The position numbers and the translations under genes were made by a program. Of a DNA stretch of 64,000 bases, positions 4,888-46,141 are shown piece after piece. Within the stretch, counting starts at the first letter, position 1. Every line of letters starts with the position of its first letter. The notes beneath the pieces were generated by a model. The model saw nothing but the letters and a program-made list of their open reading frames with translations. It was not told where the DNA came from and ran no database searches. The stretch lies in NCBI RefSeq assembly GCF_001275135.1, contig NZ_LFQU01000005.1:1-64000 (forward strand), written 5' to 3'. The stretch is from Xylanibacter rarus (GTDB lineage: Bacteria > Bacteroidota > Bacteroidia > Bacteroidales > Bacteroidaceae).

Positions 4888-4976
4888 CAAAAACAAACAA
4901 TGTTCTCAATATCCATGCTAATCTAAATAAGCATGGTTACCAGACATCTTGTTTGAGTAAACTTTATCCGTACATC

Positions 4977-8864: not shown

Positions 8865-8869
8865 ATCTG

Positions 8870-9457
8870 CTATACTTCGTTGTTTAATTGAAAAACCGGG
8901 ACGACAGTGTCTTGTATAAGATGTTTACTTGCATCCAGACAAACCCGGTCAATCCTTATTATCTCTATTTTGTTGACATTAAAAATCGCACGATTTGTAC
9001 CAAGAGAAGGATTTCGCCACGAATATGGCCACACAATACAGTCGACACCGATTTTGTTATCCAAAAACTCGGCAGCAGCTTTCTCTCCGATAAAGTCATC
9101 ATTCCCAGTAAGTGTGTTTGCCAGATATTTACGGAATAATTTCCCGTCAGCCTTAACCTTATCAGGAATTTTCTCACCAAGCACATTTTCTGTACGCATA
9201 ACAATCTTAGCATTAACAGGCTGCTTAAACATTATGTAATTATCATCCGTCAATGAAGGCACTGCCACGGTATAGACAAAGTTTTCACCTTCTGACTGTG
9301 CTTTTTGACCTGAATAATGGGCAGCAGAACTATATTTTGAAGTGACATACACACCATAACCGAACTTAATCTTTCCGCTTCCCTCCAAGACATGCTTCAA
9401 GTCAAACTCAGTAAAATAGTTATGTGAGCCATGATACATAATATCTGTGTTTTGCAT
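8870..9457 (-). CDS. ADP-ribosyltransferase-like toxin paired with NADAR
   Basis: The protein has the layout of an H-Y-type ADP-ribosyltransferase: MYHGSHNYFTEFDL near the N terminus (His9), FGYGVYVTSKYSSAAHYS (about 32-49) and, towards the C terminus, GVDCIVWPY and NRAIFNVNKIEIIRI, the pattern seen in DUF3990 and LPD29 ART domains. I infer NAD-dependent modification of a nucleic acid or protein, reversed by the NADAR partner. The frame is open to a TTG at 9526, but ATG 9457 is preferred because a promoter-like TATATTTG lies inside the extension. The third catalytic residue was not assigned. Length is 195 residues. Confidence 0.62.
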   Translation of the reverse strand: MQNTDIMYHGSHNYFTEFDLKHVLEGSGKIKFGYGVYVTSKYSSAAHYSGQKAQSEGENFVYTVAVPSLTDDNYIMFKQPVNAKIVMRTENVLGEKIPDKVKADGKLFRKYLANTLTGNDDFIGEKAAAEFLDNKIGVDCIVWPYSWRNPSLGTNRAIFNVNKIEIIRIDRVCLDASKHLIQDTVVPVFQLNNEV

Positions 9458-9502
9458 ATTATTTGTTCCAGCCAATTTCAATTCATAAATATTAATTAGA
9501 AG

Positions 9503-9510
9503 CAAATATA
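9503..9510 (-). promoter_or_regulatory. -7 box (TATATTTG on the minus strand) of the ART-NADAR pair
   Basis: CAAATATA on the plus strand reads TATATTTG on the coding strand, 45 bases before the chosen ATG. It supports the downstream start codon and an independent promoter for the pair. Confidence 0.5.
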
Positions 9511-9630
9511 TAAATTTTTCAGGCAATATAAAAACAGTCTATCTGAATGTTGGATATTTTAAATCCCAGAACTTTCATATGTTGTCCTCATGACGCACCA
9601 CAATACGCCATGAGGAAACAAACAACAATA

Positions 9631-9693
9631 ATAACCGGCAGAAGCAACATATAAATAAAGAACAAAAAACATTGTTGCTTACCAACCGGTTAT
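9631..9693. terminator. Hairpin downstream of the AAA+ gene
   Basis: ATAACCGG (9631-9638) pairs with CCGGTTAT (9686-9693), and inside it AGCAACA pairs with TGTTGCT. A second stem, CCTCATG (9586-9592) with CATGAGG (9609-9615), follows. Together they separate the AAA+ gene (stop at 9710) from the ART promoter. Confidence 0.5.
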
Positions 9694-9709
9694 GACACGA
9701 AGCAAAAAG

Positions 9710-11428
9710 CTAAAATCCTATTCTTACCTTATTTGATTTTCCTATAACCTCGTTTTTACAATATTCCTCAATCTTAGCAAGATTGACATTATCTTCGCCA
9801 TACAGGATTGAATCGACTACAGCTTTACGCGCCACATTTTCGATCTGACCTCCAGAGAACTGATACTTACCTGCAAGAAACGCAGCAGAACTGTCATCAA
9901 TAGTTGTCATTATAGTCTGCCATAATTTCTTTCTGGCCTTTTCTGTTGGCTTTGTAAACTCTATTTTATACAAGAAACGTCGTTCAAAAGCCTTGTCGAA
10001 ATTTTTAACAAGGTTAGTAGTAGCAATGAGTATGCCGTCGAAATTCTCCATTTCCTGAAGTATGATGTTCTGAATAGAATTTTCCATTTTGTCAACAGAG
10101 TTTTTTGCATTGTCAATTCGAGAACTGATAATGGCATCTGCTTCGTTGAAGAGCAAAATCGGAATACGCTCAGAACGCTTGCACATCTCTTTGTAATTGT
10201 CAAAAACAGCCTTTATGTTTTTTTCACTTTGCCCAACCCACATAGAGCGCATCCGTGAGATATTAATCTGCATAATCTCTCTCCCGGTACATCTGGCTAT
10301 CTGCTTGACGGCTTCAGTCTTTCCGGTTCCCGGCGCACCATAGAAAAGTATAGAAAATCCTCTGCTCATATTCTTCTCCTCAAGCCTTTGGCGAACAGTA
10401 TTCAGATTCTTATCACTAAGCAGTCCGCACAGTCTGTCATATTGCTCAGAAACGGTATTATCGAATATCATCTGCTTTTCATTAATCGCGTCAGGCTTCA
10501 ATATGTCCGTATGTTCGTCATTCACCTCGTCATAACATGCAATCTTTACGTTGTCAAGAAGAATTTTACGTGCCTTGTCGGTAAGCATGAACGTTCCGCG
10601 GTCTTTAAAGCCATTGCTCATTGAGAAATCTATCAGTCCAAGCTTCATCAGTTCATGACTTCCATTCTGCAATGCCCTTAACTGACGGGCGCGTACAGAC
10701 TCCTCGTCAAACAAATAAATAAAATTATCCAGCGCAACATTTTTTATGTTGCTGTTCATAAGACATCTTCCCATCTGTGACAACAAGAGGACAGATTCAT
10801 CCTCCAAGATTAGCTTACGGAGACCATCGACAAAACATATTTCTTTATTTTCATCATACAACTCGTTTATTTCAACAACAAGTTCTTCCGTGTCAATTTC
10901 TTCCATCTTGCGTAAACTGAGCAAATTATATACAAACGAAAACAGTTCATACAAATCAGAAGCCTTACGCGGTTTACATACATACGGCTCATTTGCCACC
11001 AAAGCGTCCATCACGCCGTCGTTTATCTTATAACCGTCAAACGGGCCATGTGCGCCGGATTTACGCAAGATACGTTTTTTCTCCAGTTCGTCAATCTCCT
11101 TCTGATAGCACAATATCTTCAGATTTTTACATTTAAGTTCACTTGCGATATCGGCAAGAGTTATGCACGGATCATTGCTGAAGTTAATATAAAGAGCCAT
11201 TAGCACAGTCTGCATACTGTTTAGTTTCTGACGTTCGGCAACATATTGAATATACCTTTGTGCTCTCTTTATTGACGCCGCACTTAACGACTCACCTGCA
11301 ACAATCTCCAATATTCTTTCAAGACAATTCATCATTGTCATATCTTTCTTTGGTATCGGCTTCAAGCGGGTTGACTTACCCTTGCTCTTTGATGCTAATT
11401 CGGTTTCTGAATTGTATGTATGTCTCAT
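9710..11428 (-). CDS. AAA+ ATPase with N-terminal helical/winged-helix region
   Basis: AAA+ ATPase, 572 residues from ATG 11428; a frame extension to 11503 lacks a better start. Walker A GAPGTGKT is at residues 364-371 and Walker B PILLFNEADA at about 423-432, with Asn in place of the usual Asp. Sensor-like ATTNLVKNFDKAFERRF and a C-terminal lid (FSGGQIENVARKAV) follow. The N-terminal 340 residues have no recognised domain beyond winged-helix-like pieces. The build resembles Bacteroidota Cdc48/SpoVK-type ATPases that remodel proteins. It sits on the same strand as the WG and SprT-like genes and the drm-like operon, so a role in the defence island is possible but unproven. Confidence 0.82.
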   Translation of the reverse strand: MRHTYNSETELASKSKGKSTRLKPIPKKDMTMMNCLERILEIVAGESLSAASIKRAQRYIQYVAERQKLNSMQTVLMALYINFSNDPCITLADIASELKCKNLKILCYQKEIDELEKKRILRKSGAHGPFDGYKINDGVMDALVANEPYVCKPRKASDLYELFSFVYNLLSLRKMEEIDTEELVVEINELYDENKEICFVDGLRKLILEDESVLLLSQMGRCLMNSNIKNVALDNFIYLFDEESVRARQLRALQNGSHELMKLGLIDFSMSNGFKDRGTFMLTDKARKILLDNVKIACYDEVNDEHTDILKPDAINEKQMIFDNTVSEQYDRLCGLLSDKNLNTVRQRLEEKNMSRGFSILFYGAPGTGKTEAVKQIARCTGREIMQINISRMRSMWVGQSEKNIKAVFDNYKEMCKRSERIPILLFNEADAIISSRIDNAKNSVDKMENSIQNIILQEMENFDGILIATTNLVKNFDKAFERRFLYKIEFTKPTEKARKKLWQTIMTTIDDSSAAFLAGKYQFSGGQIENVARKAVVDSILYGEDNVNLAKIEEYCKNEVIGKSNKVRIGF

Positions 11429-11515
11429 TTTCTCAATATTTTTTGTTTGTAAATAGTACCTGTATGTTTTTGCTGAAGAAGACACGAGAACATATCTTGA
11501 CAAGAAAAGATATGT

Positions 11516-11559
11516 AGATATAACGCCTTCGCACCGATGTATGCGAAAACGTTATATCT
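11516..11559 (-). terminator. Hairpin after the WG-repeat gene
   Basis: AGATATAACG (11516-11525) and CGTTATATCT (11550-11559) form a perfect 10-bp outer stem, with TCGCA/TGCGA pairing inside. It begins 11 bases past the WG gene stop, followed on the minus strand by an A/T-rich stretch. Confidence 0.55.
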
Positions 11560-11570
11560 TAATTTAATCT

Positions 11571-12263
11571 TTATACGGGATCACTCTGAACACCGAGCAA
11601 TAAGTGTTCGCTGTCTTCTGCATCATCGTAGACATTACCTTCCGTGTCTATATAGAATGTCTTTCCGTCACGGATAAATTTAATCGGCTCATCTATGTCG
11701 TCATGCTTTATGTCATCATATTCAGGACTTACATATACATCATTCTCAAAGGCATAAAGTCCTTTCTTATCATCTTTTCTAAACACAGCAAACTGATCTT
11801 CAAGTATCTGAATGTCATCATGCTCAACAGGAGCCACAATCTGTCCATTGGAATTTATCAAGCCCCAATAGTCGTCAGCCATTACAATAAAGCAGCCATA
11901 ATATATCAACGGCGCAATCTCATGATACTCGCATGGAGCAAGCATTTCTCCGGAGCCGTCTGATTTTACCATTCCGAAGTTGCCATGATTAATAACAATA
12001 TAAGGCATGTTTTTCACGAAATAGCAATATGTGAATGCTATTTTGTCAAACTTAGCCGGAACAAGAATTTCTCCCAATACATTTTTTACTCCTGCCTTAC
12101 CATCCTCATAGAAGATAACATCTGACCAGTCGAAACCGTTTTTGTATTTTTCTGCTTCAGCCAGTGCTTCGTCTCTCAATTTCTCGTCTGTCAGTTTATC
12201 AGCCTTAGCCAGCATGTTGTTATACACGCTCAGAATCTCCGATGTCGCTTTAATATTTTTCAT
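11571..12263 (-). CDS. WG-repeat-containing protein
   Basis: Protein of 230 residues built mostly of WG-type beta repeats: GKAGVKNVLGEILVPAKFDKI, HGNFGMVKSDGSGEMLAPCEYHEI, YWGLINSNGQIVAPVEHDDI and KKGLYAFENDVYVSPEYDDI, each about 40-45 residues. No signal peptide is seen, so it is probably cytoplasmic. WG repeats are presumed protein-binding. It stands between the SprT-like and AAA+ genes on the same strand, with its own hairpin after the stop. Its task is unknown; an adaptor for the ATPase is a guess from position only. Confidence 0.78.
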   Translation of the reverse strand: MKNIKATSEILSVYNNMLAKADKLTDEKLRDEALAEAEKYKNGFDWSDVIFYEDGKAGVKNVLGEILVPAKFDKIAFTYCYFVKNMPYIVINHGNFGMVKSDGSGEMLAPCEYHEIAPLIYYGCFIVMADDYWGLINSNGQIVAPVEHDDIQILEDQFAVFRKDDKKGLYAFENDVYVSPEYDDIKHDDIDEPIKFIRDGKTFYIDTEGNVYDDAEDSEHLLLGVQSDPV

Positions 12264-12353
12264 AACTTTTCGTTTTTATAGTTAATAATAATTTATAATC
12301 AATTTGTTTATTCTTTGTGTATGCCATTCTGTCATAACCTGATGATTACAACG

Positions 12354-12815
12354 TCATGCTTTCCGTTTTGAGAATAGTCTGGAAAAGAAAGATTCTTTCT
12401 GAATCATTTCCATGTTTGAGGTATCAGTATACTTATCTATATTCAGTCCATAAACAACATTCATGTATTTTGCAATGGTCCTGAATTCCTTACCATGACT
12501 CCACGTCGGGTTTACATTATTATAGTATAAGAAATAATGTATCATCTCGTGGGTCATTAGCGTCCGTAGTTGAGCATCTGTATATTTATACCTGTCGCTT
12601 ATCATGATACAGGCAGATAGAATTACGTCATTATAATAGTCACATGTAAAAGAACCTACAGGATCTTTCTTATGCATAAAATCCAGCTGAGGACACGGCA
12701 AAGTTCCACCGAAGAATCTGAAATTACATTCATCATACATGTCATACAGGTCAGGCAATGTCAGCACCTTTGCTGTTGCAGCCTTTGTCTTTGTAGTTTT
12801 TTGTCTATGTTTCAT
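12354..12815 (-). CDS. SprT-like zinc metalloprotease
   Basis: Short SprT-like (Spartan family) protein. LPDLYDMYDECNFRFFGGTLP opens the domain, and LMTHEMIHYFLYYNN carries the HExxH zinc site (HEMIH, about residues 91-95); the third ligand is probably the His in WSHGKEF. SprT/Spartan enzymes cleave proteins bound or cross-linked to DNA. The start is placed at ATG 12815 (MKHRQKTTKTK); the frame is open to a TTG at 12821. It lies on the same strand as the drm-like operon but is separated from drmB by 620 bases with a terminator-like hairpin, so it is probably its own unit. Confidence 0.85.
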   Translation of the reverse strand: MKHRQKTTKTKAATAKVLTLPDLYDMYDECNFRFFGGTLPCPQLDFMHKKDPVGSFTCDYYNDVILSACIMISDRYKYTDAQLRTLMTHEMIHYFLYYNNVNPTWSHGKEFRTIAKYMNVVYGLNIDKYTDTSNMEMIQKESFFSRLFSKRKA

Positions 12816-13396
12816 TGGCAATGCTTTTTAAGTTAAACATATTTATGTCAAAATAGGGGTGTTTCAAGTTTCAGTTTTTATTGTCGGATCTTTGTTGGCA
12901 CCATTTTCATCACCAGCAAAAAGTAAGCCAATAGTTTCTCATACTTGATTTTTGTGCTACTACAGACAACGTCCCTTAGAAATTATCTGCTTTTTCATTC
13001 TTTAATGCATATCCTGAGGTCAAAATGTCATCTGGTTTCCTATAGCATCCTATCGAAACATTTTCTCGTTTATTTTGTAAATATTGTTCCGACATATCTT
13101 GTTCGTTTTGTTTTCATATTGCAAATTATACGGCACTTATTTTTACTATCCAAAATAGGCTTAATAAATTTAACAACATTTTAAGATTTCTCAGCCAAAT
13201 TAAAATATGTTTACCATTTTCCAACTTATTATATGGAATATCTGTCATATATCATTTTTCTCGTTTTTCATGCAAATAACCGTATATCAACAATAAAATA
13301 TTTACATCAAATTTATTCTTTAAGCACCAATAAGTGCTTATATATTTTAGTTTATTTTTTAATTCATGGCATGCCATTTTGGCATAACTTATATAT
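12816..13396. other. AT-rich gap, no gene seen
   Basis: About 580 bases between the SprT-like start and the hairpin after drmB. No open frame with convincing coding character was found. One small perfect hairpin is present: TAAGCAC (13321-13327) with GTGCTTA (13334-13340). Confidence 0.5.
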
Positions 13397-13432
13397 AGGA
13401 CGGCCATAAGCTGAAACACCTATGGCCATCCT
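13397..13432 (-). terminator. Terminator-like hairpin of the drm-like operon
   Basis: On the minus strand AGGATGGCCATA and TATGGCCGTCCT pair over 12 positions with one G-U. The hairpin starts 14 bases after the drmB stop codon and is followed by an A/U-rich run. Confidence 0.6.
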
Positions 13433-13445
13433 CATATAATTTCAA

Positions 13446-15062
13446 TTATAAAACTAGTCCATTAGGACGAGGGTTAAACCATCTCTCAAGAAACAGCCTA
13501 CGGTTTAATTTTGCATTAAATTTAATACATGCAGTTTCAGGAAGATCCAAGCAAGCAAAACAATGCGCCTCATGCTCAGAACTGCAAATCGGATCGTTAG
13601 GACAATAACGTGCCCTCTCTGCCCCACGATTTATCAGGTCTATGATTTTTCCGTTTTGTGTAAGTGATATCAAACCGCCATAACTGCCCTCGCTTCCGGC
13701 TATAGTATATATCAAAAAGCCACCTTTAGAATTATCATTGTCTATATATATTTTTTCTTTTAACGATGTCAGTGGATAACCACATTGAAATTCCATTTCT
13801 TTCATGACTATATGACAAAAAGTATGTACAAAAGTCTCATAATCATCTGGCAGTATACTATTAAGATCTACTTCAAAAAGTACTCCTTCTCCATAAGATT
13901 CTACTGCAGGCATATATGTAGACATAATTGCTGCTTGCGAAGATCCATCGCCGAAAGGACGTTTTGACATAGCCGTTTCGCCTTGACTTTCTGCTTGTAG
14001 ACCTACATTATACCATTGCCTTGGTTCACCATATTTACCCATACGGGTATATGACAGCAGCACCGAAGTTTCTTTTAGCTTTTCTATAGCACTTATTCGA
14101 GAAATAAATGGCATTGTTAGTTCCGGCCTTCTTCTTACAACAAGATCGTCCTTCACAATCATATTTTCTTTAAAATTACCATCATTTGTCAGATACCTAA
14201 ATTCATGTAAATCTAATTCATCCGTATTTTGGGCATTGATGTTAGCACCAGCCTCCATTGGTATATAGAGAGAACGTACAATTTCAGGGAAATACAAACT
14301 TTGACTTCCTCTAACAACCATTTTATAAGCATTATCGTTATTTATTATATAATTTCGTTCAATTTGTGAAAGATATATCCTCCTATGAGTATCTGCATTC
14401 TCGATAAATAAGTTTTGAAGTCCGTCTCCATCTCCTCTCCGAGATCTATAGCGCAAATTTCTTGCTGCATTCATGATATTACCAACCTGCCATGCTCCGC
14501 CATTAGGATTATTCTCCCATAACCTATCGAAAGGCACATCCTCCATATCGCCAGAAAGAGATGCCATGACAAAACGAATTTGCTGTAAAGGATAACGACT
14601 TATTTTAATGGCATTAATTTGTCTACTACAAAAACAACATGCCGGTACATGTCTTCTGAATCTATTATCGTTAGGAAACGTATTATTCCAATGGAATTCC
14701 CATTCTAATAACTTATATAGACGTCTGCAATGTGGACAATAATACCATTCAGGAAAATACTTGGATGAAACAGTTGTTCCTACGTTTGCATTAGTAGCAG
14801 AATAAACAAAATTGCTTAAATCATTATCTGGTATAGGCACAAGCCTAATAACATTAGGATATCCATGTGCCTGAACATAACTAAGCAAACGGTTGTCCCT
14901 TATTTCCATAGGATTTTGGGTGACATTCACAAAACATTTCCATTGATCATATGGTAAAATTATAAGAGAACCATTTGTATTGGTTTCTATTATACTGCCT
15001 ACACCACCATAAGCAGAAATCAATTTATTTAATTGTATTTGTTCTAACTTTCTCATATTCAA
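13446..15062 (-). CDS. drmB: DrmB-like protein (DUF1998)
   Basis: DISARM component B. The 538 residues show the DUF1998 architecture: N-terminal QLNKLISAYGGVGSIIET, a zinc knuckle YYCPHCRRLYKLLEWEFHWNN followed by ACCFCSRQ (about 107-145), and a C-terminal cysteine cluster CSSEHEAHCFACLDLPETAC with NRRLFLERWF. DrmB acts together with the DrmA helicase and forms with it a DNA-binding complex in classical DISARM. Its ATG overlaps the drmA stop by 4 bases (ATGA). It is the last gene of the operon before a strong hairpin. Sequence and the pairing with DrmA agree, so the family assignment is firm; the exact system subtype is not. Confidence 0.82.
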   Translation of the reverse strand: MNMRKLEQIQLNKLISAYGGVGSIIETNTNGSLIILPYDQWKCFVNVTQNPMEIRDNRLLSYVQAHGYPNVIRLVPIPDNDLSNFVYSATNANVGTTVSSKYFPEWYYCPHCRRLYKLLEWEFHWNNTFPNDNRFRRHVPACCFCSRQINAIKISRYPLQQIRFVMASLSGDMEDVPFDRLWENNPNGGAWQVGNIMNAARNLRYRSRRGDGDGLQNLFIENADTHRRIYLSQIERNYIINNDNAYKMVVRGSQSLYFPEIVRSLYIPMEAGANINAQNTDELDLHEFRYLTNDGNFKENMIVKDDLVVRRRPELTMPFISRISAIEKLKETSVLLSYTRMGKYGEPRQWYNVGLQAESQGETAMSKRPFGDGSSQAAIMSTYMPAVESYGEGVLFEVDLNSILPDDYETFVHTFCHIVMKEMEFQCGYPLTSLKEKIYIDNDNSKGGFLIYTIAGSEGSYGGLISLTQNGKIIDLINRGAERARYCPNDPICSSEHEAHCFACLDLPETACIKFNAKLNRRLFLERWFNPRPNGLVL

Positions 15063-18000
15063 TAATTAACTTGTTGTATATTGATAAAAGCATCATTTGC
15101 TATATCCCTTAAAGATGTAGCACAATTAGCACCGACAGCAGCATTAGCTATTATATTAGATAAGCTTTGCCTCAATTCATCATCCATATTAAACCTATTA
15201 TTAAAAATAGCTTGTATCATAGCTTCAGCCAAATTACGTCCTCCCAAGCCTGGTCTATTCAATATATAATTTCTATAAATTATTATCATGTTATTCAAAA
15301 TATCATGCTTTATAGTTGAATACGTAAGTGGCGTTATGCTGAGCGGCTCAACTGATTTATAATAGGTTGCATGGAAAGACTTATAATTTTCAAAAAGAGA
15401 ATGTTCACGAATGCGCAGTGGGTTAAGAAGATTTATTACTAGTCCATAAGTATTTCTTGCAACACGGCTTGACGACTGCACATACTCAGAAGTAGAACGA
15501 GGCTGACCAACCATCACCATCTGATTCCATCTGGATATGTCAATGCCCACAGATATCATATTGGAAGCAAACACTAAATCATTTCCTGACGCCACATTCA
15601 GATGTCCGTTATCATTAACATTCAATCCGACACAAGATTCGGCCTCAGTCAAGAAGCCTTTTATACGGTTCGATTCTATGCGACTGGTAAACTCCAATAC
15701 CCTTTGGTCAAATCTGTTTTCTAACAAAGACAAAGACTTCGGTATCTGATAAAGATATTTATGAGCTCTGAAATTCTCAAAAACTTCTTGCGAAACACGA
15801 CTGCGAGAACGGCCGAGGTCCTTAAGACTGTTAAAGTATAATACAGTTGTCCAATAATTATCGAGTAACTGGAGAAGTTCGCCATCTTGATTACAAACAT
15901 TTATAACATCATCATCATTTGTCCAGTCAAGGCCTCTGTCTTCAATCTCTTTTTTAAAGACCTTAATCCTTGATAAAAGAAGAAAAGCAGTAAGACGTAT
16001 TTCTGCCATGTTTGAGCTTGAATTTCCTGACGGCATCATTCCTATATGACGACGCGTGGCACCGGGAACAATATGAGAAAAATAATTGTCATTGTAATTT
16101 AGTCCCTGAGGAGGGAATACAGCGACTTCGCGATTATACAAATTCGCGATCAAATTATTCGTATTACGAGTAGTTGCTGTAGAAGCAATAATCTTCGGTC
16201 TTCTGCCATTTCTTGATATTAACGCTTCAACAACAGATTCAAATAAACCTACAATAGACCCCAAAGCACCTACTAAAAGATGCAACTCATCTTGAATTAT
16301 CAAATCTGGTGCATCAATTCCGTTATCAGGATTTAGCAGACGTTGTGCATCGGGCCTGTTTAATTGAGCAAATTTATCAACTGTAGCAAACAGCAATGTC
16401 GGTTTTAGGTCATAAATATTTTCATCAATATAATATATTGGCAAGTGCTTACGATAAGAGCATCTTTGATTTATACACATCAGTGAGCCATTTCCTTGGC
16501 CATAACCATGATTCGAGCCATCAGGCAACACAAGCCTACTACCACACCAGGGACAATAGCTTACAGGGAATGGATTTTCGTCGCGGCGTGTAACAGGTTG
16601 AGTAAAAAATCTGCGATATGGATTCCTGTTTAGATCAGCGACATGATTTGGCGTAACACCTGATCCAACATATATACCAATTGAAATTTCTTGAGTACCA
16701 AGTCCAAGATTATGATCTTTTTGGCGCAAAAAATCAAGAGCACAAATTAAATATGAAGCTCTTTCAAACTGTTGGGACGTAAGCAAACGTAGAGTATAAC
16801 GCATAATTACAGACACACCGCTACCCTGTCCACGTCTACGTCTGTGTACTATTGTCAATGCTGTCAGAGCAAGATAAGCCTCGGTTTTACCACCACCAGT
16901 AGGAAACCATATCAAATCTACAACATCATTATGATATCTGTCATTTATTTCAAAAGTAGACTTGACATTCATAAGCAAAAAGGCCAACTGGAAAGGACGA
17001 TACTCCGGCTCAGGCATCTGAGCCGTATATTCTGCATTACGAAAATAATCTAATCTATCATAAATGTCAGGCTCGTTTGCATAGATATCTGCGTCACGGT
17101 TTTTTCTGAACAAAGGATGCCTTGCCACAACCATTTGAAGCAACATTGCGGTATTGGCTATCTTAAAACATTGAAGTGCTTCATTATTCTCAGTCAAATA
17201 ATCAATATTTTTTCCAAGCCTGGTGAGCAACTCTTTCTGTCTACTGAGAATTATTTTTGTAACATCCTGATACTGTTCCTCATTTCTTGCCGCTTCCACT
17301 TGAGCCTGCTGCCATGTACTATAACCTTCAACAAAATTTCTCAAGTAATCGATCATCTCATCATCATTCAGATTTGACCATATACTGACATTTCTCAAAG
17401 TACAAGCACTTCTTATATTATCGTTATTATATTCAGGTGCTATTTCATTAGAGAATTTTTCAACATCAACAGTAGGAGTAAATGTTGTGAACACTCTCTG
17501 ACCATCATTATCCCATCCTATAGCACAATTTACGCCTTTACCATAGTTGTGAACATTGCGATAGATAAATTCATTAATATTATTTTCTCTATCATCAATA
17601 TTTGTTATCGGCTCTACGTACGATTCTATTCTGCCTTCACCATTATGTGGAGTGACAACAATCTCAGGCTGATAAATTAAAGTATTCTGGCTTATAGATT
17701 TAACTAAGATCTTAACGAATTTCTTATCTCTGGCAGTAAATGTAGTCCAATACATTCTCATGTTTACGTCCAGATCTTCACTGCCGTTTTCGTTATCAAA
17801 ATTTAATGTTCCATGATAGTCATGGTGATATCTCTTGTAATGCTCACCCAAAAGAATATTAATCATACTGGCCTCTACAGGATATTCTGTATTTGGTATA
17901 CGCAATACATTTTGGGGTTCATGATTCTCCATAGCTTCTGACAATGATATAGTTCCATTCTCATCATCAATATTAAAACAATTAATGAATTCTTCAGGAA

Positions 18001-18586
18001 GGCCCTCCTCATTAAGCTGCTGTTGAAGAGCATTATTATTTCCAATATCTTCAATAGCCTGACGGATGGTTGCGCTAAAATGTCCTGTGCGGACTTTTAC
18101 TTCCCTGACAGATTCATTCCAGTTCAAATGGCTATAAGTTCCATAACTGATGCTGACATCAACATTATTTGTGTCATTAGATACACAAATAATCAAACCT
18201 ATATGAGACGACATTGGGTTATTACCCATATCCTGACTATTATTTTCAACGCTACCACCCAACAGTTTGCTCATACGGTCTTCTTGGTCAGTCATATCCA
18301 CATTATTTGGGATAGCATCCCCATCTGGCTGGTTATCATCATTGACGTCATTATTATTACCCTGTTCATTGTCTTGGTTACCATTCTGACCATTGCCCTG
18401 ATTACCATTCTGATTTCTGTTGTCAGGCAACAAGACACCTAACGAATAAGCCAAGCGTGGGCTTTCAGGTATAATTTCATTATGAGCATCCGGATCACAT
18501 ACAATTAAATCCTTGGCATAACCCGGACCGAGCATTTTAAGTTTTAATTCCTCTTCGATGAGGTTTCTTGCTTCTTGTTCAGTCAT
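15059..18586 (-). CDS. drmA: DrmA/YprA-type superfamily 2 helicase
   Basis: Large helicase (1175 residues) of the DISARM/Druantia group. The DrmA-type N terminus is clear: EEELKLKMLGPGYAKDLIV and ESPRLAYSLGVLLPDN. A remarkable Asn/Gly/Gln/Asp-rich linker follows (about residues 56-100). Walker A PTGGGKTEAY is at about residue 561, a Walker B variant DELH near 764, motif III ASTATTR, and motif VI in VQSSSRVARN near 1038, with VGIDISRW just before. Cysteine pairs (CPWCGSR, CINQRCSYRKH) near 690-725 suggest a zinc insert. In DISARM, DrmA with DrmB blocks incoming phage DNA. It lies 11 bases after the 737-residue gene and overlaps drmB. Confidence 0.85.
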   Translation of the reverse strand: MTEQEARNLIEEELKLKMLGPGYAKDLIVCDPDAHNEIIPESPRLAYSLGVLLPDNRNQNGNQGNGQNGNQDNEQGNNNDVNDDNQPDGDAIPNNVDMTDQEDRMSKLLGGSVENNSQDMGNNPMSSHIGLIICVSNDTNNVDVSISYGTYSHLNWNESVREVKVRTGHFSATIRQAIEDIGNNNALQQQLNEEGLPEEFINCFNIDDENGTISLSEAMENHEPQNVLRIPNTEYPVEASMINILLGEHYKRYHHDYHGTLNFDNENGSEDLDVNMRMYWTTFTARDKKFVKILVKSISQNTLIYQPEIVVTPHNGEGRIESYVEPITNIDDRENNINEFIYRNVHNYGKGVNCAIGWDNDGQRVFTTFTPTVDVEKFSNEIAPEYNNDNIRSACTLRNVSIWSNLNDDEMIDYLRNFVEGYSTWQQAQVEAARNEEQYQDVTKIILSRQKELLTRLGKNIDYLTENNEALQCFKIANTAMLLQMVVARHPLFRKNRDADIYANEPDIYDRLDYFRNAEYTAQMPEPEYRPFQLAFLLMNVKSTFEINDRYHNDVVDLIWFPTGGGKTEAYLALTALTIVHRRRRGQGSGVSVIMRYTLRLLTSQQFERASYLICALDFLRQKDHNLGLGTQEISIGIYVGSGVTPNHVADLNRNPYRRFFTQPVTRRDENPFPVSYCPWCGSRLVLPDGSNHGYGQGNGSLMCINQRCSYRKHLPIYYIDENIYDLKPTLLFATVDKFAQLNRPDAQRLLNPDNGIDAPDLIIQDELHLLVGALGSIVGLFESVVEALISRNGRRPKIIASTATTRNTNNLIANLYNREVAVFPPQGLNYNDNYFSHIVPGATRRHIGMMPSGNSSSNMAEIRLTAFLLLSRIKVFKKEIEDRGLDWTNDDDVINVCNQDGELLQLLDNYWTTVLYFNSLKDLGRSRSRVSQEVFENFRAHKYLYQIPKSLSLLENRFDQRVLEFTSRIESNRIKGFLTEAESCVGLNVNDNGHLNVASGNDLVFASNMISVGIDISRWNQMVMVGQPRSTSEYVQSSSRVARNTYGLVINLLNPLRIREHSLFENYKSFHATYYKSVEPLSITPLTYSTIKHDILNNMIIIYRNYILNRPGLGGRNLAEAMIQAIFNNRFNMDDELRQSLSNIIANAAVGANCATSLRDIANDAFINIQQVNY

Positions 18587-18597
18587 ATGCTTGTTCT

Positions 18598-20811
18598 TTA
18601 TTTTATGGTTTTTGTATTAAGGAAATTATTTTCAAGTTCATCCATTGTCGAATCTGTTCTATCTAAAAGGTCCTGCATAAAAGAAGGCAAATCTCCATCA
18701 GGATTAAGTTTATAATCAAGAAGAGCGCTTTTTAACTTTAATCCAAAATCTATATAATTAACCTGCATAAATTTACGTGCTGCTTTTACATATTTGGCCT
18801 CATCTTCAGTAAGCAAACCAGCTCCAATTAATTTGCTCAGAATAATGTTAAGGGGTCTTTTCCTCATAAACATTGATCTTCCTTCAAGATGATTATTCAA
18901 TACATTTCGTTTAATACCGACCTCCTGACATAATCTAGATATACCGTTTCTGTCTAATTGACTGACAAATGTTTTCAGTCTTTCTTGCCATAAATCAGAA
19001 TAATATCGTATGTCTCTATCGCCAGGTAAATTACAGTACGCACTAGCCAACTTGTTAAACAAGTCTGACTCTTCTGCGTTCTGAGAATAATACGTAATAG
19101 TTAAGCCTGACGGATTCTCAATAGCATTGAACGGCATGCGTCTTAAAGATTCATCAGGTTCATAAACCAATACGTCTCCATATATTATTTCCTTAGTTTT
19201 GTCTGTAAATTCAATTCTGTCAACACTATAAACTCGTCTTACAGAATAATTGACTGTTTCATCATTTTCAAAATAATCTTCAATTCTAAACGCAGCATCA
19301 TCTGCAGTAACATTTTGTTCCTCCGGAATATCTTCGTAATATAGAGGATCTCTGCGAATATTAAATGATGTTCTGTCCATAAGGCGAGTTTCAACCTCAC
19401 TATAATATAGGGCCTTAACCCTTGCAAAGTTATGAAATCTCATCAATGTTGTTATTGGATTAACATACTGAGGATTATTCGTATGAGGAGGAGCGTCTAT
19501 CACAATTATATTTCCTTCACCGCCTAAACCTTTAACTTGTCTGTATATGCTGTGATCAAGGTCAACAGCCTTAACTGCGCCTAATTCCGTTGCCTTCGCT
19601 AGCTTAGGATTTGAATCACTATTGTAGGTTAAACCACTCGCCCAGTCTTCCAATTCAGAAAAGACATCTTCATTATATATATTATCAAGAATTTTATCAA
19701 GGAATTTCGGGAAATATTCTTTAAAATTATTTAATCTAGTCTTCGAAAAATTTATGTCAGCAAGTATTTTTCTTGACATATTATATATGTGCTTTGCATT
19801 ATCATCCCCAATCTGATCTCTATATTTATCAAGTATATTTTTAAGACTTTTCATAGAGTCAGTCAGCCATGGGAAATCAATGGCTATGAACTCAGGATTA
19901 ACATATTCAACGTTTCTATTTGCTGCGCAATAATCATGAATATCCTTGAATGTCAAGGTAACGATCTGAGGCTTTCTTTCCAACAAATACATTGTGGGCT
20001 GCGACCCGTAAACAATTAATTTTTGTATTGGTCCATAAGGGTGCAGTGCATTTAATAATTGCTGAATACGGCCGAAAGCCTTGTCACCTAAGACAATGGC
20101 AATATCTGCAATTCTAGGAATTGTGCTGTTAGCATTTAACATATTCACCATAGGTAAGACATATTCTCCGGCAAACTCATACCCTCCGTAATCAGGGCTA
20201 CACACAATAAACCCCGTTGAATATCTTGCGTTTTCATTATCATATAAATTTAATATATTTATCTCATTGCTACATGACGTAAAACCATTATTCAACTGTC
20301 CGGGAATGTCATTTAACCTGTATATTGCTTTAGCACTTTTTATTACTTCATTTTTTTTCTGTATACTATATCCACATAGCCCCCTCTTTGGCAAAGGCCT
20401 CCAAATAAACGTTAACGTAGTTTTATTATTGTTTCTTACCCCGTTCAAATAATAATATGGCTCGCCGTCGTTTTCATCTGGTATAAGTAAGAATTTATCG
20501 TTTTCATTATACCATGTACCAGGATATGACAATTCACTCGGGTTAAGTCTGTCTTGCCTAAGTGCCAAACGTAACGCCAACGCAACAATATCACAAGTTT
20601 TTCTCCAATATTCATCCTGCCTATCTACATCATTTGTATATTCTTCGGCAGGCATGTTAAAATATAAGACATGTTCCTCTGAATCATTCAAAAAATGTAA
20701 CACCTCATAACAGATTCTTAAGTACAAAGGTGGATATCCATCTCTTATAATCCGATTATATAACCTATTGCCAAGATAGTTTTTTATGGTTTCTAATGTG
20801 ACTTCATTCAT
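18598..20811 (-). CDS. Protein of unknown fold in DrmE position
   Basis: Unrecognised 737-residue soluble protein. No Walker A or membrane segment is seen. The middle contains a possible Rossmann-like stretch (IADIAIVLGDKAFGRI, LIVYGSQPTMYLL, GGEGNIIVIDAP). The last 150 residues look like a helix-turn-helix region (RLCQEVGIKRNVLNNHLEGRSM). It lies directly upstream of drmA with an 11-base gap, the place taken by drmE in class 2 DISARM, so a DrmE-like role is a positional inference only. A profile comparison with DrmE is needed to name it. It starts at ATG 20811, 47 bases after the helicase gene upstream. Confidence 0.7.
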   Translation of the reverse strand: MNEVTLETIKNYLGNRLYNRIIRDGYPPLYLRICYEVLHFLNDSEEHVLYFNMPAEEYTNDVDRQDEYWRKTCDIVALALRLALRQDRLNPSELSYPGTWYNENDKFLLIPDENDGEPYYYLNGVRNNNKTTLTFIWRPLPKRGLCGYSIQKKNEVIKSAKAIYRLNDIPGQLNNGFTSCSNEINILNLYDNENARYSTGFIVCSPDYGGYEFAGEYVLPMVNMLNANSTIPRIADIAIVLGDKAFGRIQQLLNALHPYGPIQKLIVYGSQPTMYLLERKPQIVTLTFKDIHDYCAANRNVEYVNPEFIAIDFPWLTDSMKSLKNILDKYRDQIGDDNAKHIYNMSRKILADINFSKTRLNNFKEYFPKFLDKILDNIYNEDVFSELEDWASGLTYNSDSNPKLAKATELGAVKAVDLDHSIYRQVKGLGGEGNIIVIDAPPHTNNPQYVNPITTLMRFHNFARVKALYYSEVETRLMDRTSFNIRRDPLYYEDIPEEQNVTADDAAFRIEDYFENDETVNYSVRRVYSVDRIEFTDKTKEIIYGDVLVYEPDESLRRMPFNAIENPSGLTITYYSQNAEESDLFNKLASAYCNLPGDRDIRYYSDLWQERLKTFVSQLDRNGISRLCQEVGIKRNVLNNHLEGRSMFMRKRPLNIILSKLIGAGLLTEDEAKYVKAARKFMQVNYIDFGLKLKSALLDYKLNPDGDLPSFMQDLLDRTDSTMDELENNFLNTKTIK

Positions 20812-20858
20812 GATTATTATACTATTTACGTTAATAAAATTAATTTACCAGATTAAGG

Positions 20859-22742
20859 CTATATCTTACAATCAGTAAAATCCTGATGTTTCAGAGCAGC
20901 TCTACGTAGCATTGAAGCAATATCTGAAGAGGTATCTTCCAAAGTGATAACCAAAGTATCTATTGCCCTTGTCAGAGGCATCATTATCCATTGGAAAACT
21001 TGTTCCCATTTTAACCTGCTGACATCTCCAATAACATTTTCTTCAACAGACACTTCTTTGTATTTCAATTCCATTATTTCATCAATATTATAACATACAG
21101 TAACCCACCCTTCAAGACCTCGGCATGATTCATATTGAAAAATACGGCAACTGTCTATCAGCTCTTTCGGACTGCACGAAGCCAATGCTTTGGTATTTGT
21201 CCCGTCTATAAAATTAATTTTACCCGTATTTTTCCATAAATCAGCTTTTATAAAATGATTGTCTTTTACCTGAGCCGGTGAAACAAGAACGAGGATGTCA
21301 TAATTAGAGCACTCTGCATCCTTACATGTCTGTTCCAACATTGTATGCAAATCTGTTGTATAATGAGGAGCAATGATAACCTTACCGCCTTCAAGACCTT
21401 GTGCCGGTTCAAATCCTGCACATGTGTCTGAAATGCCCATTTCTTCTGTCAGACTTTTTAAGAAACTGACAATATTGGCTTTTTGGCGAAGGCCTTGTTT
21501 AAGTTTTATATTAGGTACGCCCCATCTTGCAGCTGTATTCCGTCTGATTTTCTGTAAGGCACTTTTTGCAACAATAATACGCTCTTTACCATACACACAT
21601 TCTAGAAAATCTTTTTCATCGGGAGTACAATCTTGAGCTTCATCCAAGAATATGAAGTCATCAATGTCATCTGCATATTTTGTTCTCAGCGGTTTTTTAT
21701 TATTTTGTTCATAAAGACAATGTATATATTCAATTATCTTGTTCGATTGATTAGACTTTTTCCATCCCAAATAAGATGCAAGCGAATAAAGATAAGAATG
21801 AAGCGTAGATATTGTCAGATTACTCCTTGCATCAGGTGAAGATGGAATAAAGCAGACCAAACGCTGCAAATCCATTGTAAGCGCGTTGTTATATGTCAAC
21901 AATGCACAGCTATACCCATCAGCCGCACGTTTTAATGCAGTCTGAAGCAACAAGAATGTCTTACCTGTTCCGGCTTTTCCGTCTATACAATTAAAATCAT
22001 TGTTATTTATTATTGCCTTTGCGTCATTTTCAAGCAAGCCTGAAACAAGATGTTCTGTTTTAACCCTAAGCGTAGCTGGCGCTACAGGGCGTTCCTGAAT
22101 AAAATCATTTACAAGCAGAGAAAGATCTTCTTTATGTTCTTCTTCTTTCCTTTTCATCAAAGCATCAAGTTTACCATGAAACAGGCTTTGTCCTGATTTT
22201 ATTATTTGCTTAATAATGTCTCCAAAGCAAAACGAAGAAAGCAGGACAGGATATGTCGTATTCCATTCCTTTGATTCCCAAATATCAAGAGAAACAGATT
22301 TTAGCCAAAGAATATTTGATATGAAAATCGAATAGTCATGATGTTTACAGTAATTTAAGATTGTGTATTTCTGATTTCTATTTTGCTCTGAAGCATTTTT
22401 ACGTTCATTCGTACTTGGATAGTTAACATAAATATTTGTCGAGGTAGCATATACATCATCAACCGTCTGTTCTTTAAGTTCGATTGCCGTACAAAAACTT
22501 CTGACATCAATTTCGTTATCATCAATAATCAGATGACAATCATGCAAATCTGCAACTAACAGAATATCTATATCCGAAACTCTTCCAAAAGGAATATTTA
22601 CTCCTGATAAAATATCTATAGTTCCTTTTGCAGCAGATGGAATTGTTTTACTTATCATCTCGCTCAACAATTTAGCCGCATCAGCTTCACTGCATTTACC
22701 ACTCAAAGGATAAAGATTTATTTGTAGTTGGTTGTCATTCAT
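20859..22742 (-). CDS. NERD-like nuclease fused to SF1 (UvrD/DUF2075-type) helicase
   Basis: First gene of the drm-like operon, 627 residues. The N-terminal 120 residues resemble a NERD nuclease: a conserved acid in GRVSDIDILLV and an E-x-K in FCTAIELKEQ (about residues 88-94). The C-terminal part is a superfamily 1 helicase: Walker A GKAGTGKTFLLLQ near residue 253, motif II DEAQD near 364, GLRQKANIVSFLKSL after that, and a UvrD-like end (YESCRGLEG, WIMMPLTRAIDTLVI). It probably unwinds and cuts foreign or damaged DNA. Classical DISARM has a SNF2-type DrmD here instead. A TAnnTTTG box lies 22 bases upstream. Confidence 0.8.
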   Translation of the reverse strand: MNDNQLQINLYPLSGKCSEADAAKLLSEMISKTIPSAAKGTIDILSGVNIPFGRVSDIDILLVADLHDCHLIIDDNEIDVRSFCTAIELKEQTVDDVYATSTNIYVNYPSTNERKNASEQNRNQKYTILNYCKHHDYSIFISNILWLKSVSLDIWESKEWNTTYPVLLSSFCFGDIIKQIIKSGQSLFHGKLDALMKRKEEEHKEDLSLLVNDFIQERPVAPATLRVKTEHLVSGLLENDAKAIINNNDFNCIDGKAGTGKTFLLLQTALKRAADGYSCALLTYNNALTMDLQRLVCFIPSSPDARSNLTISTLHSYLYSLASYLGWKKSNQSNKIIEYIHCLYEQNNKKPLRTKYADDIDDFIFLDEAQDCTPDEKDFLECVYGKERIIVAKSALQKIRRNTAARWGVPNIKLKQGLRQKANIVSFLKSLTEEMGISDTCAGFEPAQGLEGGKVIIAPHYTTDLHTMLEQTCKDAECSNYDILVLVSPAQVKDNHFIKADLWKNTGKINFIDGTNTKALASCSPKELIDSCRIFQYESCRGLEGWVTVCYNIDEIMELKYKEVSVEENVIGDVSRLKWEQVFQWIMMPLTRAIDTLVITLEDTSSDIASMLRRAALKHQDFTDCKI

Positions 22743-22764: not shown

Positions 22765-22772
22765 CAAAGTTA
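22765..22772 (-). promoter_or_regulatory. -7 box (TAACTTTG) of the drm-like operon
   Basis: CAAAGTTA on the plus strand is TAACTTTG on the coding strand, 22 bases before the ATG at 22742. It is the only good promoter candidate before the four tightly spaced genes, which fits a single transcript of about 9.3 kb. Confidence 0.55.
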
Positions 22773-23217: not shown

Positions 23218-24456
23218 CTACCCTCTCTGTTTCTGCTTGAACAACTGAAGAGGTTTGCCGTAGTTGAGCATGCGCCATATCCACTCTAGGGGGCCGAACT
23301 GGCAGTAATGGAACCACAGACGGCTTAGCAACATCTGAAGGACAAACACGCCGAGGGCTATAATCTCTGTAAACGAAAGGCCCACGCCGGCACCAAGGCC
23401 GAAGCCTATGCCGTAGAAAAGGAACATGCCTGCTATAGACTGACAGATGTAATTGGTCAAAGCCATGCGGCCGGTAGCGGCAAGGGCGCGCCATACCGCC
23501 GAACGGCTGCTGCGGAGATAAAGCAGGCAGAGGGACGACATATAGGCGAAACCGAGCGGATAGACGCTGACGGCGTAAAGCAATGAGTGGGCAGCGTTGC
23601 CAAATGGATGACCGCCAACGGCGCTCCATGCATAGACAACAGACAAAGGAATACCGACACTGAAGCCTATAACCGACACGCGGTGCAGCAAGTGCCTATG
23701 GGCTGAAAGGTCGGCATATATCTTCTGACGCCCGATGTAATAGCCTATCAGAAACAGGCCAAGGACCTTAAAATAGCGGTTGCCGTCGACAAACTCCTGC
23801 ACTCTTACCAACGCTCCCTGAATAAGAAACTGAAACACCTGAGCATAACTGTCAGCATCGCGCAGCCAATAGCCGAAGTTTTCTTCTGTTATGCCGTACT
23901 TGCGGCAGTAATGCCATTGAGCCTCAACGGCAGGAGCCGAAAGACTGACGCCGAAGATCTGTGTCAGTGTGTCGACAGCCACGGGCAACACAAGGAAGAA
24001 GGCTGCCCACGAAAGCATCTTCCGGTTGCTCACGTTTCTGAACAACGGCAGCACCATGCCCATAAGGGCATAAAGCATAAGTATGTCGCCGCTCCAAATG
24101 AACATAAGATGCAGGAATCCTATAGCGAGCAACACGGCCATGCGTCTGTAGAACAGTCTGAAAGCCCCGTTGCCTTTCTGCTCGGCATGACTTATTATTA
24201 TCGAGAAGCCCATGCCGAAGAGCAGCGAGAACAGGGTGTAAAACTTGCCGCCGATGAACACATACTGCAAGAATCGCACAATCCTGTCTACACCGGCTGA
24301 AGGCATTGACGCCGCAACGTCGGCCGGCTGAAACGTATAGAGCGAGAACTCGGGATAATTGGCAAGGCAGATGCCAAGCAAGGCGAAGCCTCTAAGTGCG
24401 TCGAGAATGACATAGCGTTCCGACGGCTTTACTGGGGAATAGTTGGTTTTGGACAT
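23218..24456 (-). CDS. DUF418 membrane protein (YeiB-like)
   Basis: Polytopic membrane protein of 412 residues with about 9-10 hydrophobic segments. The N-terminal family signature YVILDALRGFALLGICLANYPEF and the C-terminal DUF418 block (GRMALTNYICQSIAGMFLFYGIGFG ... FGPLEWIWRMLNYGK) are both present. The family is related to acyltransferase-3-type membrane proteins and is often proposed to be involved in transport or transfer of small groups; no function is established here. It is GC-rich compared with the drm-like genes upstream, which marks a return to core chromosome. It is monocistronic, with 350 bases before the next gene. Confidence 0.88.
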   Translation of the reverse strand: MSKTNYSPVKPSERYVILDALRGFALLGICLANYPEFSLYTFQPADVAASMPSAGVDRIVRFLQYVFIGGKFYTLFSLLFGMGFSIIISHAEQKGNGAFRLFYRRMAVLLAIGFLHLMFIWSGDILMLYALMGMVLPLFRNVSNRKMLSWAAFFLVLPVAVDTLTQIFGVSLSAPAVEAQWHYCRKYGITEENFGYWLRDADSYAQVFQFLIQGALVRVQEFVDGNRYFKVLGLFLIGYYIGRQKIYADLSAHRHLLHRVSVIGFSVGIPLSVVYAWSAVGGHPFGNAAHSLLYAVSVYPLGFAYMSSLCLLYLRSSRSAVWRALAATGRMALTNYICQSIAGMFLFYGIGFGLGAGVGLSFTEIIALGVFVLQMLLSRLWFHYCQFGPLEWIWRMLNYGKPLQLFKQKQRG

Positions 24457-24808
24457 GGATATTTTTTTTAGGAGTTAAGGAGTTATGAAGTTAAGGAGAA
24501 GTTCCTTGAGCATAGCGAAAAAAGACGTATGCCTTGAGGGGTATTGTCATTTGGAGTTAAAGTAGTTAAAGGAGTTATCGCCAACAAGTTGGCTAGGAGT
24601 TAAAGCCATATGCTTTGTGGATCCTTATCCAAAAATAGACACAAGACATTTGAATTTTTCACTCTTCACTTTCGTAAGGCGCTGTTTAATTTTACTTTTA
24701 ATTTTTAACTGCGCTTGCGCTCCCCGCCTGCTCTTCATTTTCACAAGGCAAATCATAATTAGCTAACGCTGAACTTTGTTTCTCCATTCTCAACTCTCAA
24801 TTCTCAAT
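24457..24808. repeat. Intergenic low-complexity repeats
   Basis: No gene is seen. The segment contains repeated GGAGTTAAGGAGTTA-type text (24472-24560), whose complement (TAACTCC) recurs at 350-440. It also carries TTTTTCACTCTTCACTTTCG near 24655 and CTCAACTCTCAATTCTCAATTT near 24790. It appears to be the same class of dispersed repeat as at 1-480. Confidence 0.45.
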
Positions 24809-25711
24809 TTACTTTCTGTTCACCATCATCACGCTTATCAGTATCACGGCAAGACCGGCGAGCTGTATCAGCGTTACGTCCTCATGACCAAGGCCGGCAC
24901 CGATTACTACAGCAACAACGGGATTGACGTAAGCATGAGTGGCAACTTCGGTGGCAGGACGCACACGAAGCAGCCAGATGTATGCCGTGTATGCCATCAT
25001 TGAACCGAATACTATAAGATAGGCCAACGAAAGCCATGAAACGGCTGATACTGCAGAGAGCTGCAAACTGCTGAAATCGCCCGACAATCCTGCGCACAAG
25101 GCAAACACGACGCCCGCACCGAGCATCTGCCATGCCGACGACGACAGTCCGCCGTCATCATTGCCGCGGATGTGATATTTTGAATACAGCGTACCGCATG
25201 CCCACGATATGCATCCACCTATAAGCAGAAGCACGCCATACTCATAATGACTGCCGCCGGGACGCTGCATGTTGAGCTGTTCGAGATAGAGCATGGCCAC
25301 ACCAAGAAAGCCAAGCACGATGCCTGCCACGGTGGAGACACTTCTGAAATTGCGACGCCACTGCGGAATATCGAGCAGCATTATCCACAAAGCCGTAGAC
25401 GAAGCCATTATTGCGACAAGACTGCTGCTGACATAGCGCTGGGCAAACATGATGACGCCCTGATCGACAAACAAAAGAATGATGCCGCACACGGCCGACT
25501 TAAAGATAAGTCCACGGCGCAACAGCCGCTCGCCACGCAACCGGCATACAGCAAGCAAGGCCAGACCTGCCACGGCGAAGCGCACCGTGCCGAGCACGAA
25601 CGGCGGAAAGTCGTGAAGACAAACCCCGATGAAATAATATGTGGAGCCCCATACAACGTATATGAGGAAATAGGCTGCAGCTACCGCAAGGCTGCCGGGG
25701 GGCTGTGGCAT
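24809..25711 (-). CDS. EamA/DMT-family transporter
   Basis: Inner-membrane metabolite exporter of the drug/metabolite transporter superfamily. It has ten hydrophobic segments in two EamA repeats; LIYVVWGSTYYFIGVCLHDFPP opens the first and PVVAVVIGAGLGHEDVTLIQLAGLAVILISVMMVNRK closes the second. The ATG at 25711 (MPQPPGSLAVAAAYFL) is chosen over a GTG at 25780, because the added residues are not membrane-like and the family starts just before the first helix. The length of 300 residues is normal. The substrate is unknown (amino acids or related compounds in relatives). Confidence 0.88.
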   Translation of the reverse strand: MPQPPGSLAVAAAYFLIYVVWGSTYYFIGVCLHDFPPFVLGTVRFAVAGLALLAVCRLRGERLLRRGLIFKSAVCGIILLFVDQGVIMFAQRYVSSSLVAIMASSTALWIMLLDIPQWRRNFRSVSTVAGIVLGFLGVAMLYLEQLNMQRPGGSHYEYGVLLLIGGCISWACGTLYSKYHIRGNDDGGLSSSAWQMLGAGVVFALCAGLSGDFSSLQLSAVSAVSWLSLAYLIVFGSMMAYTAYIWLLRVRPATEVATHAYVNPVVAVVIGAGLGHEDVTLIQLAGLAVILISVMMVNRK

Positions 25712-25816
25712 AGGCAGTTTGTTTGGTAAATAGTAATAATTGTCAGACCGAAAGCAGCGCGCCAGCCCTTTGGCCGGCACGTTGCCCTATATGCGTCAGC
25801 ACCATAAGCAATGATG

Positions 25817-45825: not shown

Positions 45826-45986
45826 AAGCTATTGGTTAATAAACATGGAAGATGAGGGCCTTCCTTTCCCCGGGTCTGACTTCTTCGAACTGATAACAGC
45901 CTACCAAACTCCACCCGACGCGTGATTTTTCAGCTTTCCACCTTTTCTGGTGCTGTTGCTGTGGCTTGCTCCCCTCGGCACCGCTT

Positions 45987-46002
45987 CGGGGACACGTCCC
46001 CG
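45987..46002. repeat. 7-bp perfect hairpin between template repeat and reverse transcriptase
   Basis: CGGGGAC and GTCCCCG form a perfect 7-bp stem with a 2-base loop, 26 bases downstream of the template repeat on the transcribed strand. It may end or fold the template RNA. Confidence 0.5.
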
Positions 46003-46028
46003 CTGCTGTACGCCGATTTGTTAGATTT

Positions 46029-46141
46029 CCAGACGCGAGCCGACATTCGCATTCGTATTCGAAGCATCGTTATTCGCATTCGCATTCGACACACCGCCAT
46101 TCGCATTCGCATTGTTGTACCCGCGATAGACCACACGGACT
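46029..46141 (-). repeat. DGR template repeat (TR), 113 bp
   Basis: Non-coding copy of the variable repeat, offset by exactly 603 bases from it. Read on the transcribed strand it would encode YNNANANGG and further Asn-rich text, with about eleven AAC/AAT codons, the usual adenine-rich composition of template repeats. Of 113 positions, 108 are identical to the variable repeat. The five differences are all adenines in the template strand. The rest of the 45826-46200 gap holds no gene. Confidence 0.93.

Follow-up and report, generated by a model that had tools for sequence, protein, structure and literature searches.

A DISARM-like operon with a NERD-type helicase and no linked methyltransferase in Xylanibacter rarus

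The window analysed here is a 64,000-nucleotide stretch of Xylanibacter rarus DNA (contig NZ_LFQU01000005.1, positions 1 to 64,000; assembly GCF_001275135.1). It contains a four-gene operon encoding, in order, a superfamily 1 (SF1) helicase with a NERD domain, a DrmE-like protein, DrmA and DrmB. No methyltransferase gene is linked to it. The operon is probably (about 0.6, on sequence grounds) a DISARM-like anti-phage system, in which a DrmE-DrmA-DrmB core is joined by a NERD nuclease-helicase and which has no methyltransferase of its own.

Organisation of the operon

The operon occupies positions 22742 to 13446 of the minus strand. Its four codirectional open reading frames (ORFs; 627, 737, 1175 and 538 amino acids) are as tightly packed as a preliminary description of this DNA had stated, with gaps of 47 and 11 bases followed by a 4-base overlap. 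All are open, and their motifs are kept. The features are:

20859..22742, minus strand: NERD-SF1 helicase, 627 amino acids; NERD-like nuclease motif and helicase motifs
18598..20811, minus strand: probable divergent DrmE homologue, 737 amino acids; hhalign 92.4%, E 5e-7, and AlphaFold2 model
15059..18586, minus strand: DrmA-type YprA-family SF2 helicase, 1175 amino acids; PADLOC, PDB and NCBIfam
13446..15062, minus strand: DrmB-type DUF1998/MZB protein, 538 amino acids; PADLOC, PDB and NCBIfam
13389..13439, minus strand: likely terminator hairpin directly 3' of drmB; folding energy, z -6.2
22765..22772, minus strand: TAACTTTG, possible Bacteroidota-type -7 box; pattern match, not above chance

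One promoter box and one terminator had been described. The terminator remains likely: the hairpin (-30.3 kcal/mol) was equalled by none of 200 shuffles. The box does not stand out. At 22772-22765, TAACTTTG is a possible Bacteroidota-type -7 box, but the pattern TANNTTTG occurs 55 times in the window against 44 by chance. This is close to the chance rate, so the promoter, though plausible, is a guess.

The operon had been drawn from 12354, which takes in a SprT gene. This gene starts about 570 bases past the hairpin and, on that evidence, lies outside. The SprT, WG and AAA+ genes are separated from the operon by the hairpin and a 624-base gap, and in 102 loci of relatives no gene up to five places from DrmA had any of them as its best label; their suggested role as accessories finds no backing here.

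DrmA and DrmB

DrmA matches the PADLOC DrmA model at 520.8 bits (1.3e-156) and DrmA in the PDB (7s9v_A, 3.7e-101); its best DruE score in PADLOC is 11.1 bits. The motifs PTGGGKT (562), DELH (766) and SSRVAR (1039) are present, there is an N/Q/D-rich stretch at about residues 57-110, and Pfam gives no MZB or Vsr match in this protein. DrmB is encoded by a separate gene. It matches PADLOC DrmB (1.3e-41) and 7s9v_B (2e-24), reaches 18.5 bits against Pfam MZB (cut-off 24.2), and has C-terminal cysteines at 487, 493, 501, 504 and 512. Both proteins are divergent in sequence, because both fall under the NCBIfam cut-offs: 670.5 bits against 950 for DrmAS, and 218.1 against 240 for DrmB.

Methyltransferases and other DISARM components

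Pfam scans of the window covered 32 proteins (9 + 3 + 10 + 10) and PADLOC scans the nine operon and island proteins. Methyltransferases were also sought with a C5 profile on non-overlapping ORFs of at least 80 amino acids and a motif scan on those above 200. The screen flagged only a 1457-residue histidine kinase and a 286-residue D12 methyltransferase (42052-42912); the latter lies beside thymidylate synthase in a phage-like part of the window, 19 kb from the operon. The earlier statement that the only methyltransferase in view is a phage-side one is thus confirmed. Neither DrmMI nor DrmMII was found in the operon by PADLOC, Pfam or C5-profile scans. Likewise, as first reported, the 32 proteins scanned with Pfam and the nine scanned with PADLOC include no listed DrmC phospholipase D nuclease and no match to the DrmD SNF2 helicase.

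Relatives of DrmA were collected from genomes of the phylum (14 neighbourhoods; homologue in 15 of 296 genomes, including the window's own), from plasmids (8 loci from 85 records with a match) and from genome_contigs (the best 80 of at least 581 matches). Locus groups were named after the neighbourhoods had been seen. Group A comprises 26 DrmE-DrmA-DrmB loci; an organism is named for 23 of them, and in 17 cases it belongs to Bacteroidota. The DrmA tree that had been proposed was built from 103 proteins less two fragments. It places the window among 16 group A rows (17 with the window), with a Shimodaira-Hasegawa-like approximate likelihood ratio (SH-aLRT) of 95; for all 26 group A rows plus the window, the value is 92. 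The window's branch is very long (1.15). Group A is the best place, but in a 52-row tree the alternative of joining the window to groups GS and R, at a cost of 23.9 log units, passes the approximately unbiased test (p-AU 0.166).

C5 methyltransferases were counted from 6 kb upstream to 4.5 kb downstream of DrmA, in loci with full flanks. Group A has none in 13 such loci (of 26). The corresponding counts are 9/11 for group C (of 18), 4/4 for F (of 4), 6/6 for GS (of 10), 0/5 for R (of 6) and 11/27 for the remaining loci (of 36). Taken together, C, F and GS have one near 19 of 21 loci. Fisher's test, with no correction for kinship, gives p 1e-7 for A against these three and 1e-4 for A against all other groups. 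Group A therefore has no close C5 methyltransferase, and relatives lacking a linked one do recur; to speak of an absence of methylation would go further than the data. In one group A stretch (L028) a C5-like fragment lies at the very end, 8.1 kb off, and in another (L043) a type I system whose methyltransferase is annotated lies about 7 kb upstream. Adenine methyltransferases near relatives' DrmA were screened by motif only. Candidates outside the count span are a DPPY protein (L058, at 8.5 kb) and an NPPF protein (L068, at 6.1 kb); the candidate at L062 is an aminotransferase, and a further one is in L082, a locus that the count does not include.

The window's gene order (NERD helicase, DrmE-type protein, DrmA, DrmB) is also that of groups GS and R. 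The first gene in GS operons encodes a C5 methyltransferase; in R it encodes a radical SAM-like protein (L090:3177-4589, L095:3185-4618, L096:2678-4180, L102:3141-4568, L124:3086-4519). CxxxCxxC is conserved in 5/5 of these proteins, whose hosts are Prevotellaceae, Bacteroidaceae and Dysgonomonas. Pfam radical SAM is weak in one of three scanned (L096, 18.5 bits, cut-off 29.5). The radical SAM-like gene that takes the position of the methyltransferase in group R points to a further mode of marking or cutting.

A probable divergent DrmE

The 737-residue protein was described at first as unknown. It has no PADLOC match, and its Pfam and NCBIfam rows are at chance level (E about 0.1). Profile searches, proposed earlier for all four proteins, matched DrmA and DrmB, but the DrmE models missed this one. 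It is most likely a strongly diverged DrmE, although none of the published models tried finds it. This identity is suggested by its match to a group A profile, by colinearity and by its C-terminal fold. The profile was built from 23 group A proteins whose genes immediately precede drmA, and Pfam DrmE_C matches one of these proteins; in hhalign, residues 532-737 align with 604-809 (92.4%, E 5e-7), and the realigned match is colinear from residue 218. In the AlphaFold2 model, the predicted local distance difference test (pLDDT) score is mostly 70-94 over residues 531-737.

Controls (five shuffles, the reversed sequence and the NERD helicase) reached at most 2.8% over nine profiles. Among four other large proteins, two type I R-like proteins scored 95.4% (L052) and 71.3% (L043) against an actinobacterial profile, which consists of proteins of 1555-1614 amino acids and is not DrmE-type; the rest were at or below 1%. 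The group A profile is linked to those of groups C, F, Big and K at 95.5-99.8%; its links to the G, S and R profiles are weaker (71-86%).

Many relatives' loci encode a protein of 500-1130 amino acids directly before DrmA or before the NERD helicase, and one similarity cluster holds 61 of 164 proteins above 250 amino acids from these two upstream places. Published models find few of them. Pfam DrmE_C (cut-off 27) matched two of six tried (L042, 42.1 bits; L037, 35.7) and did not match those of L028, L038, L124 and L090. PADLOC DrmE matched two of eleven (L067 and L092) and gave no match in L028, L029, L030, L031, L033, L038, L060, L063 and L085. If the 737-residue protein is a DrmE, the operon core would be that of a class 2-like DISARM without DrmMII and DrmC.

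The NERD helicase

The first gene encodes, as claimed earlier, a NERD-SF1 helicase. It has a NERD-like nuclease motif (D59, E88, K90, Q120), a Walker A motif at 255-262 and DEAQD at 367-371. The whole protein matches 27 NERD helicases found beside DrmA at 98.3% over residues 41-493; the helicase core is clear, and the four nuclease residues align with the relatives' NERD motif residues.

Its homologues outside its own genome number six: three among 295 other genomes of the phylum and three in plasmid records. Half of these sit in Druantia-type operons (L136/L141, L138 and L139); DruE and DruF are identified by PADLOC in the first two, and L139 is assigned by similarity to L138. Of the others, L135 lies on a 9-kb contig without a DruE/DruF-type gene, and around L140 and L142 no relative of DruE or DruF was found within the stretch. 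A 38-helicase tree joins the window protein to L135, L136, L138 and L139 (SH-aLRT 100), although a long-branch warning applies; 33 DISARM-associated NERD helicases form a separate side (SH-aLRT 100). The subfamily of the window helicase thus differs from the GS/R type. In the Druantia-type operons L136, L138 and L139, the NERD-type SF1 helicase stands beside DruE or DruF, and PADLOC lists no Druantia model for it; the NERD motif was aligned for L136 only.

Genomic setting

The operon lies at one end of an AT-rich stretch (8286-22742) with a GC content of 36%, against 47-53% around it. The same-genus genome G642 keeps the three genes at 23218-26662 and then diverges, a synteny break; in its next 9.5 kb no window ORF is matched. 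The AT-rich stretch also holds ADP-ribosyltransferase, NADAR and IetA-like genes. The ADP-ribosyltransferase-like gene (PARP/DUF3990) adjoins the NADAR-domain gene at 8286-9526; both match PADLOC candidate defence models and are possibly a toxin-antitoxin pair. Other defence-type genes near this stretch are an AbiEii toxin-type gene with an unassigned neighbour (4953-6432) and an Abi_2 gene (34797-35708). The phage-like region has a likely diversity-generating retroelement (44524-46751 and 46564-53115) with an RVT_1 reverse transcriptase. A 120-base repeat (46029-46148) has a 93% copy at 46632-46751, inside a gene for a 2183-residue protein; six of the eight differences are at adenines of the first copy.

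Proposed function and alternative readings

From these homologies we infer a role in defence, with DNA sensing, a nuclease and a DrmE that each contribute to it. In the Serratia DrmAB structures, a trigger loop holds the complex autoinhibited and is dislodged by 5'-overhang DNA; sparing of host DNA by structure, perhaps with methylation, was proposed, and DrmC is reported as dispensable (PMC9142583). By analogy, the operon probably senses DNA structure rather than methylation. DrmA and DrmB would form a gated SF2 translocase that is loaded where phage DNA exposes single-stranded 5' ends or forms replication forks, and self would be told from non-self by DNA structure, as with Serratia DrmAB (same source). 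DrmE, with a proposed helicase-like fold and no P-loop, may serve as a scaffold or sensor, a non-ATPase partner. The NERD-SF1 helicase would make the cut, replacing DrmC. The N/Q/D-rich stretch of DrmA could act as a flexible gate.

A broader proposal, which we would put at somewhat under even odds, is that DrmE-DrmA-DrmB cassettes without a linked methyltransferase form a methylation-independent DISARM branch. The window copy would have recruited a Druantia-associated NERD nuclease-helicase as its effector, giving a hybrid of DISARM and Druantia in which structure alone identifies phage DNA; DrmE would be the structural counterpart of DrmD, a subunit with a helicase fold and no P-loop. A natural branch with the same core and no linked methyltransferase would allow the methylation-independent part of host sparing by DISARM to be tested directly.

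Several observations weigh against a DISARM-like anti-phage system without a methyltransferase of its own. The genome has one C5 methyltransferase (contig C22); other contigs carry five matches of N6_Mtase type, and there is an N6_N4 match under the threshold. Because such methyltransferases exist outside the contig of the operon, marking in trans by those of the host is possible. Pfam DrmE_C and PADLOC DrmE miss the 737-residue protein, and the link to DrmE comes from profile comparison alone. It matched one of nine upstream-protein profiles, the other eight (groups C, F, G, R, S, Big and K and the actinobacterial one) giving at most 0.9%. Its mean pLDDT is 52.5, with a confident fold in the C-terminal third alone. 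The NERD domain taken by itself is not significant (at most 1%; 0.2, 23.0 and 23.6% with two relatives added). Finally, none of the other genomes searched has the 737-residue protein, as would also be expected of a locus that is decaying or changing very fast.

The best of the alternatives, although an unlikely one, is a degenerate class 2 DISARM. Its methyltransferase and DrmC would have been lost, and the system would either be disappearing or be kept working by methyltransferases of the host in trans. This would be consistent with the long DrmA branch, with the methyltransferases elsewhere in the genome, with the gene order shared with GS and R, where a C5 methyltransferase or radical SAM-like gene stands in front, and with the placement beside GS and R that is not rejected. 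The preliminary description had named a DrmE match and methyltransferases in relatives' copies as signs of such degeneration, and the outcome is mixed: a DrmE is likely, but linked C5 methyltransferases are missing from the nearest group and common in three others. The four open frames with motifs kept, the best tree (DrmA in a group without a linked C5 methyltransferase, 17 rows) and a NERD helicase that is not of the GS/R type all argue against this alternative.

A DNA-repair or housekeeping operon is improbable. YprA helicases such as MrfA do act in repair (PMC12458937), but DrmA and DrmB here belong to the DISARM branch, the AT-rich stretch carries the genes listed above with AbiEii and Abi_2 some kilobases either side, and the same place in G642 has no matching gene.

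Least probable is an ARMADA system, or another member of an ARMADA-Druantia branch: a UvrD-like helicase beside a YprA helicase does resemble ArmD beside ArmC (PMC12458937) and the NERD helicase has relatives in Druantia-type operons, but the YprA helicase clearly prefers DrmA models to DruE, DrmA and DrmB are separate genes, and the gene content already contradicts it. ARMADA is defined by three neighbouring components, namely a BrxHII helicase, a PglX methyltransferase and a YprA helicase, the last typically with a fused DUF1998 part (PMC12458937). A C-terminal Vsr nuclease on the YprA helicase is a further ARMADA feature; BrxHII, PglX and Vsr have no match among the nine operon and island proteins (PADLOC, Pfam). 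Of the ARMADA-type bridge between DISARM and Druantia suggested earlier, the ARMADA part thus falls, while the Druantia link gains unexpected support from the NERD helicase relatives.

Comparison with known systems

The four-gene set is not described in the available portions of the cited literature, though part of group A may already be tabulated in supplements. Of the two DISARM types (PADLOC definition, PMC9252829), class 2 (DrmMII, DrmE, DrmA, DrmB, DrmC) is nearer. The window shares DrmA, DrmB and, encoded immediately before DrmA, a protein resembling DrmE; it differs in having no methyltransferase or DrmC and an added NERD-SF1 helicase, in DrmA and DrmB scores below the NCBIfam cut-offs, and in a DrmE recognised by profile-profile comparison only. 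The DrmD SNF2 helicase of class 1 is unmatched among the window proteins scanned. DISARM-like loci with ShdA are reported in PMC10270631. TALON combines TPR-CSD and TBP genes with a NERD nuclease and an ARMADA-like YprA helicase; TPR-CSD and TBP domains are unlisted in Pfam for the nine operon and island proteins. ARMADA type II, with a YprA helicase, a UvrD-like helicase and an SNF2-fold protein, resembles the window by analogy only; its ArmA, ArmB and DUF1998-fused ArmC are unmatched.

Group A cassettes are the nearest DrmA relatives. They have the only matching DrmE profile and, like the window, no close C5 methyltransferase; no NERD helicase of the window type was seen alongside them. Some adjoin McrBC-type genes (L028, L055), a type I R protein (L043, L052) or a prokaryotic Argonaute (pAgo; L028). 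At L028:5937-19561, DrmE-DrmA-DrmB lies directly 3' of pAgo (PADLOC 1.4e-248), a 559-residue protein and an AAA_5 (McrB-like) gene, all in one direction. Operons of groups GS and R match the window's four-gene order, but have an extra first gene and NERD helicases of another subfamily. Druantia type II/IV-like operons (L136/L141, L138, L139) hold some of the closest relatives of the window NERD helicase; they are built on DruE and DruF, whereas the window is built on DrmA, DrmB and the probable DrmE. A Druantia-associated helicase joined to a DISARM core suggests that modules move between YprA-based systems.
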